Below, in pieces: positions 3,589-62,250 of a DNA stretch of 64,000 nt. Numbering within the stretch: position 1 is the stretch's first letter; every line of letters begins with the position of its first letter. The notes under the pieces were generated by a model. It was not told the origin of the DNA. It ran no database searches and saw only the letters and a list, made by a program, of their open reading frames with translations. A program made the position numbers and the translations under genes. Source of the stretch: Haloterrigena salifodinae (GTDB lineage: Archaea > Halobacteriota > Halobacteria > Halobacteriales > Natrialbaceae); the NCBI RefSeq assembly GCF_003977755.1, contig NZ_RQWN01000001.1:574995-638994 (forward strand), in the 5' to 3' direction.

Positions 3589-4101
3589 TCACGCGGACCC
3601 CCTAGCAGAAAGCACGTCCCGGAGCGCCGTCCGGTGGCACCGCTTCTTCTCGGTGTTCTCGAAACAGACCAGCGCCAGCGACTCGCCCGCGGCCAAGCGC
3701 GACTCGAGGTTCTCGATCGCCGCCCGCGCCTCGTCCGATTCCTCGAGATACTTCCGATACGCCTCCTCGAACCCGACCTCGTCCCACGCGGCGTTGTGGG
3801 CGCCCTCCTCGCAGAGCCCCTGCATCTTCATGTCCTCCTCACGCTGGCGGAACGTCTCGAGCAGGTCCGCCGGCGGCCCCAGTTCGGGTCGGTTCTCGTC
3901 GATGGCGCCGTGGAACCACGACGTGGGTTTGCGGACGACGCCGACGCGGGTCGCATCGGCGGGCAGCTCGACCAGTTCGTGCTGGATCGCGGCGACGTAG
4001 GTGTCGGTGAGCGTTCCGGTCCCTCCGTCAGCGTCCTCGCTCCCGACGATATCGCCGCTCTCGTCGGTCCCCGCGGGCTCGTGCTCGTCTGCGTCGACCA
4101 T
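3589..4101 (-). CDS. DUF488-family protein
   Basis: 170 aa. The C-terminal signature, LALVCFENTEKKRCHRTALRDVL, matches the DUF488 pattern of a hydrophobic strand, Cys, Glu and then CHR, and the VVRKPTSWFHG stretch fits the family's substrate-side loop. Function is unknown; the conserved Cys and His suggest a catalytic or redox role. The first 30 residues are acidic and probably disordered. The start at 4101 is backed by a TATA element centred 28 nt upstream, shared with the divergent uridine phosphorylase gene. Confidence 0.75.
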   Translation of the reverse strand: MVDADEHEPAGTDESGDIVGSEDADGGTGTLTDTYVAAIQHELVELPADATRVGVVRKPTSWFHGAIDENRPELGPPADLLETFRQREEDMKMQGLCEEGAHNAAWDEVGFEEAYRKYLEESDEARAAIENLESRLAAGESLALVCFENTEKKRCHRTALRDVLSARGSA

Positions 4102-6609: not shown

Positions 6610-6962
6610 TGCTCATACAAGTTGCTCCCGCGCGAATAAGCGTTGTGGACCGTCTGACGCACGTCTGTCGCTTCTCTCTCGGTTCGACCGGATTCAAAAT
6701 ACCCAGATCACGGTTCAGCGCTCGATTCCGGAGCTCGGACGGCATTCCCGCCATTCGGCGGTGTGACGCAGCGTCGGTCCGATTCTCAACCAGTGGATGA
6801 TCGGTCTCGACGACGCCGGAGCCGTTCTCGAACGGCCGTCGACGCGCCGGTTCCTGACGACTCCGCGAACGAGTCTCTTTCAAGCCGGTCCGGAATCGGT
6901 GTCGACCGTCCGCTTCTTCACAATCGGGTCACTGCGTGGAGCTGCCACTCGAGACGAGCGGC
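6610..6962. other. Intergenic region between dacZ and a small membrane protein
   Basis: 353 bp. It carries the dacZ promoter on the minus strand (TATA-like GCTTATTCGC, 6632-6641). The rest shows no ORF with good codon use and no clear repeat. Confidence 0.55.
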
Positions 6963-7199
6963 TCACTCGGTCAGCGGCAGGATGACCCCGAAAATCCACA
7001 CCGAGAAGAAGCCGATGATGAGGCCGCCACCTTCCGCGAAGGTAAACAGCGTGTGTTCCCACCCCGGAAGCTGTCCCACGAACATGTGGCCGAACAACTC
7101 GCCGGCTGCGCCCAGCATCAGGAGCCCGAGGCCGAGCAGGAAGCCGCTCTTCGTGAGGAACGGGTAATCGAGATCACCGTATCGTCCTGTACGGGTCAT
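6963..7199 (-). CDS. Small two-helix haloarchaeal membrane protein
   Basis: 78 aa. Two hydrophobic segments are clear: residues 19-35 (GFLLGLGLLMLGAAGEL) and 56-73. The conserved-looking features are GDLDYPFLTKSGF at the start, PGWEHTLF in the middle and ILPLTE at the end. It resembles a small family of unknown function found widely in haloarchaea. The ORF can be read upstream, but the ATG at 7199 has a TATA-like element (GATAATAATT on the minus strand, about 7221-7230) 27 nt before it. Confidence 0.75.
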   Translation of the reverse strand: MTRTGRYGDLDYPFLTKSGFLLGLGLLMLGAAGELFGHMFVGQLPGWEHTLFTFAEGGGLIIGFFSVWIFGVILPLTE

Positions 7200-7310
7200 A
7201 CGTAACACAGATACGCGAGGAATTATTATCGCTTCGGAACCCGAAGGCGATCGCTCGGGCCTTGTTGCCGACCGCTCAGCGCTCGTGATCGGTTTCGTTG
7301 AATGAGGGCT

Positions 7311-7427
7311 GCGGGACCGGATTCGAACAACGCGAAGACGTGCTCGCTCCCGATGGTCGCTGCGCGCGTCTTCTCTCGTTCGAATCCGCTGGCTACATTT
7401 TCCACTCACGACGTTGTTCGCGGAAAA
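7311..7427 (-). repeat. tRNA-Leu trailing element: hairpin plus T-arm palindrome
   Basis: Read in the tRNA direction, the gene is followed by a hairpin (ATTTTCC 7397-7403 with GGAAAAT 7422-7428, reaching the discriminator base). Next comes a nested palindrome: outer arms 7378-7388 and 7318-7328 (GTTCGAATCCG and its complement, i.e. the T-arm), inner arms 7367-7373 and 7334-7340 (CGTCTTC/GAAGACG), and a loop holding GCTCGCTCCCGATGGTCGCT. It ends in an 18-bp exact copy of the tRNA 3' part (7311-7328 equals 7431-7448). No integrase is present. Confidence 0.8.
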
Positions 7428-7512
7428 TGCGCGGGACCGGATTCGAACCGGCGGACCCCTACGGGACAGCGTCCTAAGCGCTGCGCCGTTGGCCTAGCTT
7501 GGCTACCCGCGC
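7428..7512 (-). tRNA. tRNA-Leu (anticodon TAG)
   Basis: 85 nt with a complete cloverleaf. The acceptor stem is GCGCGGG paired with CCCGCGC and the discriminator is A. The anticodon stem CAGCG/CGCTG closes a 7-nt loop CTTAGGA with anticodon TAG, reading CUA. A long variable arm and the GGTTCGAATCC T-arm fit a leucine tRNA. CCA is not encoded. No intron is visible. The 3' side is followed by a copy of its own 3' end (7311-7328). Confidence 0.95.
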
Positions 7513-27738: not shown

Positions 27739-27823
27739 GCCGAGATAGCCTAGCCCGGCCAAGGCGGTAGATTCGAAATCTACTGTCCTCACGGACTCGG
27801 GAGTTCAAATCTCCCTCTCGGCG
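27739..27823 (+). tRNA. tRNA-Ser (anticodon CGA)
   Basis: 85 nt. Acceptor GCCGAGA pairs with TCTCGGC, discriminator G as usual for serine. The anticodon stem GTAGA/TCTAC closes the loop TTCGAAA, anticodon CGA (codon UCG). A long variable arm follows, and the T-arm is GGAGTTCAAATCTCC. CCA is not encoded and there is no intron. A two-unit trailing array of copies of its own 3' end follows (27824-28121). Confidence 0.95.
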
Positions 27824-28121
27824 TTTTCACGGCGATAACGACGGTGAGCGGAGCGAACCGTCCGTCGTCGTGAAACTTACAAGGAGATTTGAATCAGGGA
27901 GGAGCTTTGCTCCGACCGTGGTTCAACTCTCCCTCTCGGCGCTTTTCCAGCAGCAAACCGGTGAGCGACGCGTAGCGGCGCGAACCGACTCCCGTTGCTG
28001 GAAAACGATCGCGGGATTTGAACGAGGCCAGACGCGCACAGCGGAGCGAGCACGTCTGGACGTTGTTCAATCATCCTCTCTTACGAACGGCAAAGTGAGT
28101 GCAGCGAGCCGTGCGTTCGTT
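27824..28121 (+). repeat. tRNA-Ser trailing array: three hairpins and two T-arm palindromes
   Basis: Order: hairpin 1 (TTTCACG 27825-27831 with CGTGAAA 27869-27875; inner ACGACGG/CCGTCGT). Palindrome A: inverted T-arm GGAGATTTGAA 27883-27893, inner GGAGC/GCTCC 27901-27913, then a copy of the tRNA 3' end, 27921-27941, with 1 mismatch in 21. Hairpin 2 (TTTTCCAGCA 27943-27952 with TGCTGGAAAA 27996-28005). Palindrome B: arms near 28015-28023 and 28065-28072, inner CCAGACG/CGTCTGG 28028-28059. Hairpin 3 (ACGAACGGC from 28083). The loops carry GTGAGCG and GCGAAC words. Confidence 0.82.
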
Positions 28122-28354
28122 CATCCGACGACACTGTCCCGAGCCCGAGTCCCGTCCCCGAGTCGAGCCCGCAGCGACGACCCACTCACCGCTTTGTCGA
28201 CCGCGGCGAGCCGTTACGCGTCTGGCCTCCACGAGTGACAGACACAACCATGCTATTCGCAAGCATACTGTTTATCGAAATCGGTCCGAAATCGGTAGTA
28301 GCAGAAAATGGGACTCGATTATAATCAGGCAGCCGTCGATCGGGGTGGACAGCG

Positions 28355-30275: not shown

Positions 30276-31850
30276 TCAGTCGTCCGCCGGCGCGAGCGGC
30301 TGCTGATCGGCTGCGAGCAACCGATCGAGCGCGTCGACCATCGCCTCGACGCTCGCACGCGTGATGTCGGCCTCGCTGCGGGCGACCGTCACGGAGCGAT
30401 CGTTGCGAATCATGGTCACCTCGACGGTGACGACGGCGTCCGTGCCGCCGGTCACGGCGTCGACGTGGTAGGAGTCGAGTTCGGCGTCGGCCATCGAGCC
30501 CAGCGCCTCGCGAACCGCGGAGACGGCGGCGTCGACGGGGCCGGAGCCGGTGCCGCTCGCGACGCGTTCCTCGCCGCCGACGTCGAGCCGAACGCTCGCG
30601 GTCGGGACGGCACCGCCGCTCGTGGCGGACAGATCGAGGAGTTCGACGACTCGCTCGCGGTCGTCGCCGGTGACGTCCTCGGCGATCGCCAGCAGGTCGG
30701 CATCCGTGACCCGGCGACCTCGGTCGCCGAGTTCGGTGACGCGATTCGCGATTTCGGCGATTTCGTCGTCGGCGGCGTCGACGCCGTGTTCCTCGAGCGT
30801 CGCCGCGACGCCCGCGCGGCCGGTGTGCTTCCCGAGGGCGAGCCGTCGCTCGCGGCCGACGGTTTCGGGCTCGTAGGGCTCGTACATCTTGTCGTCCTTG
30901 AGCGTCCCGTCGGTGTGGATCCCGCTCTCGTGGGTGAAGGCGTTCTCGCCGATGACGGCCTTGTTCGGCGGGAGCTGGATGCCCGTCGCTCGCGAGACGG
31001 TCTGGGCGAGGTCGTACAGCTCCGTGAGCTCGAGCGTCTCCACGTCGTAGACGTGCGAGAGGGCGATCGCGACCTCCTCTAAGGCGACGTTGCCGGCGCG
31101 TTCGCCGAGCCCGTTGACCGTACAGTGGACGAGGTCGGCGCCGGCCGAGACGGCCGCCAGCGCGTTCGCGACGCCCAGGCCGAGGTCGTCGTGAGTATGG
31201 GCGCTGACCGGTCCAACGTCGGTGAGCCGACCGACCGCTTCGGCTGTGCGCTCCGGCCCGGTGTGGCCGACGGTGTCGGCGAAGCAGATCCGATCGGCGC
31301 CGGCGTCGACGGCCGTCGCCATCAGCTCCTCGAGGTAGTCGAGATCGGCCCGGGAGCCGTCCTCGCCGATGACCTCGACCCAGAGGTCGTGGTCTTTCGC
31401 GTAGGCGACGAGTTCGGCGGTTTTCTCGAGGTTGTCCTCGTGAGAGGTGCCGACCTTGTCCTCGATATGGCGGTCACTGGCGGGGACGACGATGTGGACC
31501 CCGTCGACGTCACAGTCGAGGGCCAGATCGATGTCGGACTCCATTCCGCGACAGAAGCTCGTGACACGGGCGTCGAGCTCGAGGTCGGTCACCCGCGAGA
31601 TGGCCTGTCGTTCGCCCGCGCCGGTGCAGGCGCTGCCCGCCTCGATGACCGAGACGCCCGCCCGCTCGAGCGAGCGGGCGATTTCGACTTTCTCGTCGGG
31701 CGTCAAGGAGACACCCGGGGCTTGTTCGCCGTCGCGAAGCGTCGTATCGAGAAGGCGGACTGTGCGGTCTGGAGCGATCGTATCGTTGGCGGAGTGAGTC
31801 ACAGGTAGAAGCGAATCGGTGGTTACGGTCGTTTCATCGGAGAATTTCAC
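30276..31850 (-). CDS. cimA: (R)-citramalate synthase / isopropylmalate-synthase family
   Basis: 524 aa from a [23 protein letters not shown] at the start, [26 protein letters not shown] and [13 protein letters not shown] are family signatures with all metal and acetyl-CoA residues. The C-terminal 130 residues form the LeuA-type allosteric dimer domain. It condenses acetyl-CoA with pyruvate (citramalate) or with 2-oxoisovalerate (isopropylmalate); haloarchaeal members of this subgroup are mostly annotated as citramalate synthases on the threonine-independent isoleucine route. No leucine or isoleucine gene is adjacent. Confidence 0.85.
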
Positions 31851-32011
31851 GCCCAGCCGGGTTGCCCCGACTTCCTCTATCCTCGGACATATGTATGTGC
31901 CTCTATCACAGTATGCTGACTTAAATCCGCCGGTCCCGACTCGCTGAGACGAGGTTTGGAGTCCACCTCCCTCGGTTCGTTCGACCGCTCAGCACCTCGG
32001 TTTGGGGGCGC

Positions 32012-62073: not shown

Positions 62074-62175
62074 AGAAGTGCTCCGTCAGGGATTCGAACC
62101 ACAGTCGCAGCAAAGCTGCTCCCTGATTCGAATCCTGGGTTGCAGTCTTCGCTCACGGAATTGTTCGCGAAGAAG
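62074..62175 (-). repeat. tRNA-Glu trailing element: hairpin plus T-arm palindrome
   Basis: In the tRNA direction: a hairpin (TCTTCGC 62146-62152 with GCGAAGA 62167-62173), then outer arms TTCGAATCC (62127-62135) and GGATTCGAA (62090-62098), an inner hairpin GCTGC/GCAGC (62107-62119, loop AAA on the plus strand), then a 27-bp exact copy of the tRNA 3' part and flank (62074-62100 equals 62171-62197). The core around the inner hairpin matches that of palindrome A after tRNA-Ser. Confidence 0.82.
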
Positions 62176-62250
62176 TGCTCCGTCAGGGATTCGAACCCTG
62201 GTCATTGCCGTGAGAGGGCAATATGATTGGCCGGACTACACCAACGGAGC
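62176..62250 (-). tRNA. tRNA-Glu (anticodon CTC)
   Basis: 75 nt. Acceptor GCTCCGT pairs with ACGGAGC, discriminator A. Anticodon stem TTGCC/GGCAA closes the loop CTCTCAC with anticodon CTC (codon GAG). T-arm CAGGGTTCGAATCCCTG. No CCA encoded, no intron. A 27-bp copy of its 3' end lies 97 bp downstream. Confidence 0.95.

Follow-up and report, generated by a model that had tools for sequence, protein, structure and literature searches.

Palindromic units that copy the 3' ends of haloarchaeal tRNA genes: candidate gene-free mobile cassettes

Tandem units downstream of a tRNA gene, all with a copy of the tRNA 3' end, are known from E. coli as the rtT repeats of the tyrT operon, and casposons insert at tRNA 3' ends. 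Archaeal tRNA-targeting integrative elements use tyrosine integrases and target the 3' part of the tRNA (PMC8371274). In Haloquadratum, PATEs and SMRs do not duplicate their target and are not described as tRNA-targeted, and the MITEs end in inverted repeats that are related to transposons (PMC3119063). Here we describe a tandem array of palindromic units 3' of the tRNA-Ser(CGA) gene of Haloterrigena salifodinae. The window, which is the whole stretch of 64,000 nucleotides that was analysed, is G000:C1:574995-638994 of this 4.96-Mb haloarchaeal genome (G000).

The target gene, tRNA-Ser(CGA), was located at 27739..27823 by ARAGORN and Rfam, and its part from G53 to N73 occupies 27803-27823 (the gene and all features of its array are on the + strand). 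The first-pass annotation had described the order hairpin, palindrome, hairpin, palindrome, hairpin after this gene, and this order was present at 27824-28120. Unit 1 begins with the hairpin H1 (27824..27875; TTTTCACGGCG...CGTCGTGAAA), which carries tandem G.A pairs at its tip (GAGCGGAGCGA). Its left arm (27883..27893) was recognised with an inverted-arm profile as an inverted T-arm (GGAGATTTGAA), and a type A inner stem-loop follows at 27894..27920 (TCAGGGAG-GAGCTTTGCTC-CGACCGTG). The G at 27921, after this stem-loop, is the G53 of the right arm (27921..27941), a direct copy of tRNA-Ser G53-N73 that matches 27803-27823 at 20 of 21 bases, in agreement with the claim that the first copy spans the whole tRNA 3' end. 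Unit 2 has its own H1 (27943..28005; TTTTCCAGCAGC...GTTGCTGGAAAA), which in a congener (G003, locus L049) sits directly 3' of tRNA-Ser(CGA). It continues with an inverted T-arm as left arm (28011..28022; GCGGGATTTGAA), an inner stem-loop (28023..28064; CGAGGCCAGACGCG...CGTCTGGACGTT) and a decayed direct copy as right arm (28065..28080; GTTCAATCATCCTCTC), for which the sister genome G004 has GTTCAAATCTCCCTCTC. The third hairpin (28082..28120) is probably an H1 left over from an older unit. The claim that a direct copy closes each palindrome held well for unit 1 and less well for unit 2, whose copy has decayed, and the inner stems do not pair perfectly as had been stated, since G.T, G.A and other mismatches were found. 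The folding z was -6.2 for 27739-28135 as RNA and -4.7 for 27824-28135 as DNA, and in either case none of 100 shuffles was as good.

The arrangement at tRNA-Ser(CGA) is not unique, and two further tRNA genes in the window have units, both on the - strand. At tRNA-Leu(TAG) (7428-7512), H1 lies at 7398..7427 and the palindrome with the direct copy of the tRNA 3' end at 7310..7389; at tRNA-Glu(CTC) (62175-62250), H1 lies at 62146..62174 and a type A palindrome with the direct copy at 62078..62138. A check of the 300 bp 3' of the tRNA genes, as the first-pass annotation had proposed, was run on 45 genes of G000. The gene's own 3' end (at least 75% of its last 20 nt, within 300 bp) was copied downstream in 27 of the 45, versus 0.1 expected from shuffles, and an inverted T-arm (at least 10 of 12 bases matching) was found at 17 of them, versus 0.45 expected. 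The tRNA-Trp gene, which is additional to this set, has two units, and about one third of the G000 tRNA genes have none. Dozens of units in G000 ruled out a peculiarity of the single tRNA-Ser(CGA) locus, and a chance repeat there was ruled out by the shuffles together with the genome-wide excess. Elsewhere in the window, the tRNA-Thr called by ARAGORN at 3939-4036 (+) is probably false (no Rfam tRNA match, no unit), and a leuA-Halobacteria cis-regulatory RNA (RF03001) was found at 31839-31891 (-), at the start of a citramalate/isopropylmalate synthase-like gene.

A strict pattern (GATTYGAA-N20-50-TTCRAATC) was used for the genome scan. It matched 1-24 times each in 23 of the 24 sampled genomes of the order, which cover at least five families. 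Outside the order, one or two matches each were found in 11 of 124 genomes of the phylum, and in four of these 11 genomes, among the matches listed, the sequences were unlike units. Matches of a reversed-pattern control were near zero, and all true matches in G000 lay 3' of a tRNA. The units are confined to haloarchaea, and nearly all sampled haloarchaeal genomes have them. No unit was found in viral and phage collections by two IMG/VR patterns and phage BLAST, which ruled out the known viruses covered there as carriers. The sole plasmid match was a 987-kb Natrinema replicon, on which the same region is present, with a PEP carboxylase gene on one side and a 4Fe-4S protein gene on the other. 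No prior description of the units was found in a literature search limited to open-licence papers; an earlier description is possible because only such papers were covered.

A unit consists, in this order, of the H1 hairpin, an inverted T-arm, an inner stem-loop and a direct copy of tRNA G53-N73. It is about 75-130 bp long and non-coding, and its sequence is determined by structure. The arm profile was built from 92 first units at many loci. It showed that the direct copy starts abruptly (identity 0.97 at G53 versus 0.53 one base before), keeps an identity of at least 0.90 up to position 72 and ends at N73 (0.80-0.91 versus 0.48 beyond). In the inverted arm, the match begins at T54 and fades after about 10 bases. 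The left arm is specific to the local tRNA. Its outer four bases gave 320 matches to the local tRNA (203 expected; maximum 234 in 5000 permutations) and its variable T-loop positions 323 of 345 (267 expected); these counts are inflated by related sequences, yet 30 isoacceptors are represented. In a five-unit array at tRNA-Ser(TGA) of G096 (L127/L152), the left arm spans nearly the whole inverted tRNA 3' end.

Many tips of inner stems and H1 combine tandem G.A pairs with two base pairs and a GNA triloop. GNA triloops are especially stable in DNA. Tandem-G.A tips were found on the tRNA-sense strand in 46 cases versus 4 on the antisense strand for palindromes, and in 27 versus 1 for H1. When stem mismatches were counted on the sense strand, G.A exceeded C.T (333 versus 67) and G.T exceeded A.C (219 versus 145). 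The excess of G.A and G.T and the sense-strand tips therefore suggested that the sense strand folds, either as RNA or as single-stranded DNA. A second kind of unit (type II), in which the copies flanking a hairpin, one inverted and one direct, are limited to the acceptor part and the T-loop is absent, was seen at tRNA-Ala(GGC) and tRNA-Arg(GCG) of G000 and at tRNA-Ala(CGC) of G004 (L011, L039 and L099). In L134, L234 and L266, integrase-bearing elements have ends made of a similar hairpin plus core.

One inner type, GAATCAGGGAG-N-CGACCGTGGTTC, was searched in 84,980 genomes and gave at least 129 matches in at least 120 stretches; all 80 listed titles were Halobacteria. Of the 129 matches listed, 115 followed a same-strand tRNA at a distance of 35-382 bp, and 30 isoacceptors were represented among the tRNAs preceding the matches listed. 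Of 12 outer bases in the right arm beside this inner type, 10.2 agreed with the local tRNA and 5.4 with other tRNAs. For inner stems overall, 160 similar pairs were co-oriented and none was inverted. Fourteen listed matches had no upstream tRNA, and six examples were examined. Five of them (L208, L234, L260, L266 and L268) have a partial tRNA 3' end immediately upstream of the unit, which ruled out true non-tRNA copies at these loci; such partial ends look as if left by an element integrated between the tRNA and the unit. Two of the tRNA-less matches come from the last example, L177, and lie at the protein gene considered below; the remaining ones are close to the ends of the sequence stretches compared. 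Units displaced from their tRNA were likewise seen at two loci of the pattern search (L088 and L134).

Orthologues of tRNA-Ser(CGA) in 29 relatives have from zero to three or more units. Between G000 and its sister G004, a unit is present in G004 only at Pro-TGG and in G000 only at Gly-TCC and Gly-GCC, and at these sites the sequence beyond the copy directly adjoins the tRNA in the other genome. At Ala-CGC an acceptor-only (type II) unit is in G004, not in G000. The inner stem differs between the two genomes at Thr-TGT, where H1 and the sequence downstream of the copy are conserved, and at Phe, where H1 is conserved. Pro-TGG was compared in six congeners: units are absent from G000, G001 and G005, A stands alone in G004 and follows B in G003, and in G002 an A with another inner stem (A') is followed by the H1 of B. 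The Gly-TCC unit is in G000, G002, G005 and, displaced, in G003, and is lacking in G001 and G004. This distribution suggests that unit loss is also common, and in some lineages it looks more like loss than gain. At multi-unit loci (n = 30), the proximal copy was better in 21, equal in 8 and worse in 1. Presence/absence and permuted order could partly arise via recombination between direct repeats, which would take no special enzymology. No excised or circular unit was seen. Two local rearrangements were seen as well: at tRNA-His of G004 (L143) a hairpin pair of about 50 nt is nested in H1 relative to G000, and at tRNA-Asn of G000 (L001) about 200 bp, including the unit and sequence beyond, appears tandemly duplicated after the tRNA.

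Units were also found at a gene that does not encode a tRNA. In Natronorubrum texcoconense, three units lie 3' of a protein gene with a weak OB_ChsH2_C match (L177, reverse complement 6735-7070). The gene ends with ...WDGYRFEPV-stop, and these last codons (GGTTCGAACCGGTCTGA) form a T-arm look-alike (GGTTCGARCC). The same site holds one to three units each in G258, G022 and G002 (L295, L296 and L297), and in many other Natrialbaceae the same gene end is empty of units. The left arm there (CCGGTTCGAA) matches the gene-end target too. In both kinds of target, the direct repeat spans from the crossover point to the gene 3' end: at tRNAs it covers G53-N73 (21 nt), and at the OB-fold gene it is 15-19 nt long and reaches the stop codon or its vicinity. 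The repeat follows the functional gene end, which points to the carriage of a replacement gene end rather than to a staggered cut of fixed length. The four OB-fold loci may represent one or few insertions, so that the gene-end inference rests on few events. In these genomes, paralogues of the OB-fold gene match to a similar extent.

DNA-level insertion of discrete units at T-arm motifs is well supported by these comparisons: the swapped and permuted units, the empty sites and the OB-fold insertion argue for it and against a pre-tRNA trailer. The same evidence supports the suggestion of the first-pass annotation that this could be a tRNA-targeted palindromic element. It had also been right that the array goes beyond one integration event; repeated insertion fits, with the copy nearest the tRNA best preserved. 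On balance, we think it probable that the array consists of two cassettes and a remnant, which would be non-coding, mobile and site-specifically recombined into the T-loop by a recombinase acting in trans. This reading builds on features that the compared genomes display: the units occur class-wide, match their targets, are precisely present or absent, shuffle as modules, keep a fixed orientation and also use a target that is not a tRNA gene, and integrase-bearing elements share their core. A cassette would enter the T-loop of a tRNA gene, or a motif resembling it, between G53 and T54, leaving an intact gene end beside the gene and displacing the previous end outward. Because each insertion would push the old end outward, repeats of this step would build tRNA-[H1-palindrome]-[H1-palindrome] arrays. 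The recombinase would be supplied in trans, with a tyrosine integrase as the best candidate, and the palindrome would be the recombination site, probably as a folded single strand like integron attC or CTXphi attP. The identity of the recombinase, the single-strand folding and the route by which the arms match a new target are what we infer. Matching of the arms to each new tRNA lies beyond the recombination model, and hairpin-templated correction or conversion from the tRNA are candidates for it. More tentatively, and with less than even confidence, gene-free palindromic cassettes of this sort might be an undescribed, class-wide kind of mobile element, probably recombined as folded single strands into the T-loop of almost every tRNA gene and bringing along a spare 3' end matched to that gene, with tRNA genes as integron-like platforms.

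The matching of arms to their target is what replication template switching with gene conversion would account for. Palindromic T-arms would stall replication, the 3' end would be copied in both orientations, and ectopic conversion would spread inner stems between tRNA loci via the shared TTCRAATC core; the short cores in both arms are indeed common to all tRNAs. Hairpin-tip swaps (Val-GAC) and nested hairpins (His of G004) would also follow. This account is nevertheless unlikely in our view, because whole units are gained and lost precisely with defined ends (G53 to N73 plus H1), one inner type occurs in a single orientation across many genera and 30 isoacceptors, and units stand at a protein gene end whose orthologous sites are empty.

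Integrases and large elements were found at the same core. In Haloterrigena salina, a 3.1-kb element lies in tRNA-Val at the same T54-N73 core, beside a unit; its integrase is broken and matches Phage_integrase at E 0.00077, which falls short of the curated cut-off. In L234 an intact integrase (PF00589, 1.4e-7) adjoins a displaced unit. These two elements indicate that integrases acting on the T-loop region exist, and integrases from such elements are candidate movers of the units. A third element, of about 18.6 kb (G003:C1:2290714-2309908), lies in tRNA-Gly(TCC) with a tRNA repeat of about 45 nt and displaces a unit. Near tRNA-Ser(CGA), Pfam found no integrase in two neighbour proteins (bactofilin-like and ferredoxin-like), and no integrase was recognisable by eye among the other ORFs within 5 kb of the array. 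Since large elements integrate at the same genes and cores, and the type II units at Ala and Arg genes are like the hairpin preceding the core at large-element ends, the units might be ordinary att scars, i.e. end-only deletion relics of integrase-encoded elements with no mobility of their own. We regard this as improbable, because the large-element ends that were examined (L208 and L166) are without the H1/inner pair and because the compact unit is repeated at 30 isoacceptors and shuffles as a unit.

Insertion by a Cas1- or casposase-like enzyme, with the gene 3' end as the duplicated repeat and H1-palindrome as the insert of a CRISPR-like array, seems more improbable again. It would give the leader-repeat-insert-repeat geometry, with the best-preserved copy adjoining the leader, and the direct copy would automatically be the local gene's own end. 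However, the repeat length is not fixed (21 nt at tRNAs versus 15-19 nt at the protein gene, from few events), the target-matched inverted arm is left unaccounted for, and a non-systematic look identified no casposon-like terminal inverted repeats in the units. Least probable, and not supported as an origin, is the other alternative of the first-pass annotation, a structured pre-tRNA trailer, here taken as under RNA-level selection, whose hairpins or extra 3' end would regulate tRNA processing: the fixed orientation and the mismatches and tandem-G.A tips favouring sense-strand folding agree with it, but that bias is equally compatible with single-stranded DNA, about one third of the G000 tRNA genes do without units, units of the same type stand at a protein gene end, and turnover is fast, sister species differing at orthologous genes. 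A secondary RNA role may exist beside the DNA-level origin.

If the cassette reading is true, most haloarchaeal tRNA genes would be assembly platforms for tiny modular DNA cassettes, a class-wide and apparently unnamed system. It would offer a minimal natural case of recombination sites customised to their target, could be where integrase decoy sites at tRNA genes come from, and would allow the gene-free spread of palindromic DNA to be tested in a tractable system. For annotation, it would mean that a partial tRNA copy in a haloarchaeon is not necessarily a scar left by a phage.

The units match none of the tested known families in full; integrons, integrase-encoded elements, PATEs and casposons each fail at least one tested feature. 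The rtT repeats are alike in being tandem 3' units that hold a copy of the tRNA 3' end, but they occur at one locus, have no target-matched inverted palindrome and are not class-wide over tRNA genes; an Rfam search of the array region gave no family but tRNA at the gathering score and no rtT match. Casposons and CRISPR arrays share the leader-repeat-insert-repeat layout at a tRNA 3' end, whereas the repeat length of the units follows the gene end and an inverted arm is present. PATEs, SMRs and MITEs are short, non-coding, palindromic, mobile and haloarchaeal like the units. Unlike PATE or IS605-type elements, every unit is flanked by direct gene-end copies. The inverted arm of a unit is internal and target-derived rather than terminal, which may set the units apart from MITEs. 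With tRNA-targeting integrative elements, the units share the duplicated gene end, the intact gene and the T-loop core. They differ in being about 100 bp long, encoding nothing and being too short for an integrase, and in being palindromic, tandem, present at most tRNA genes and equipped with a target-matched inverted arm. Integron arrays differ in other respects, since the units are archaeal, have no genes and, among the ORFs within 5 kb of the tRNA-Ser(CGA) array, no recognisable linked integrase IntI, target the tRNA T-arm and have arms customised to the host gene. The likeness to integron arrays lies in modules that each end in a strand-asymmetric palindrome with an inverted and a direct core, in the newest module standing beside the fixed end, in the fixed orientation and in a core that starts G-TT. 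An attC-like feature, inverted and direct T-loop cores flanking a strand-asymmetric stem, is present in the units and may be read as a resemblance only.
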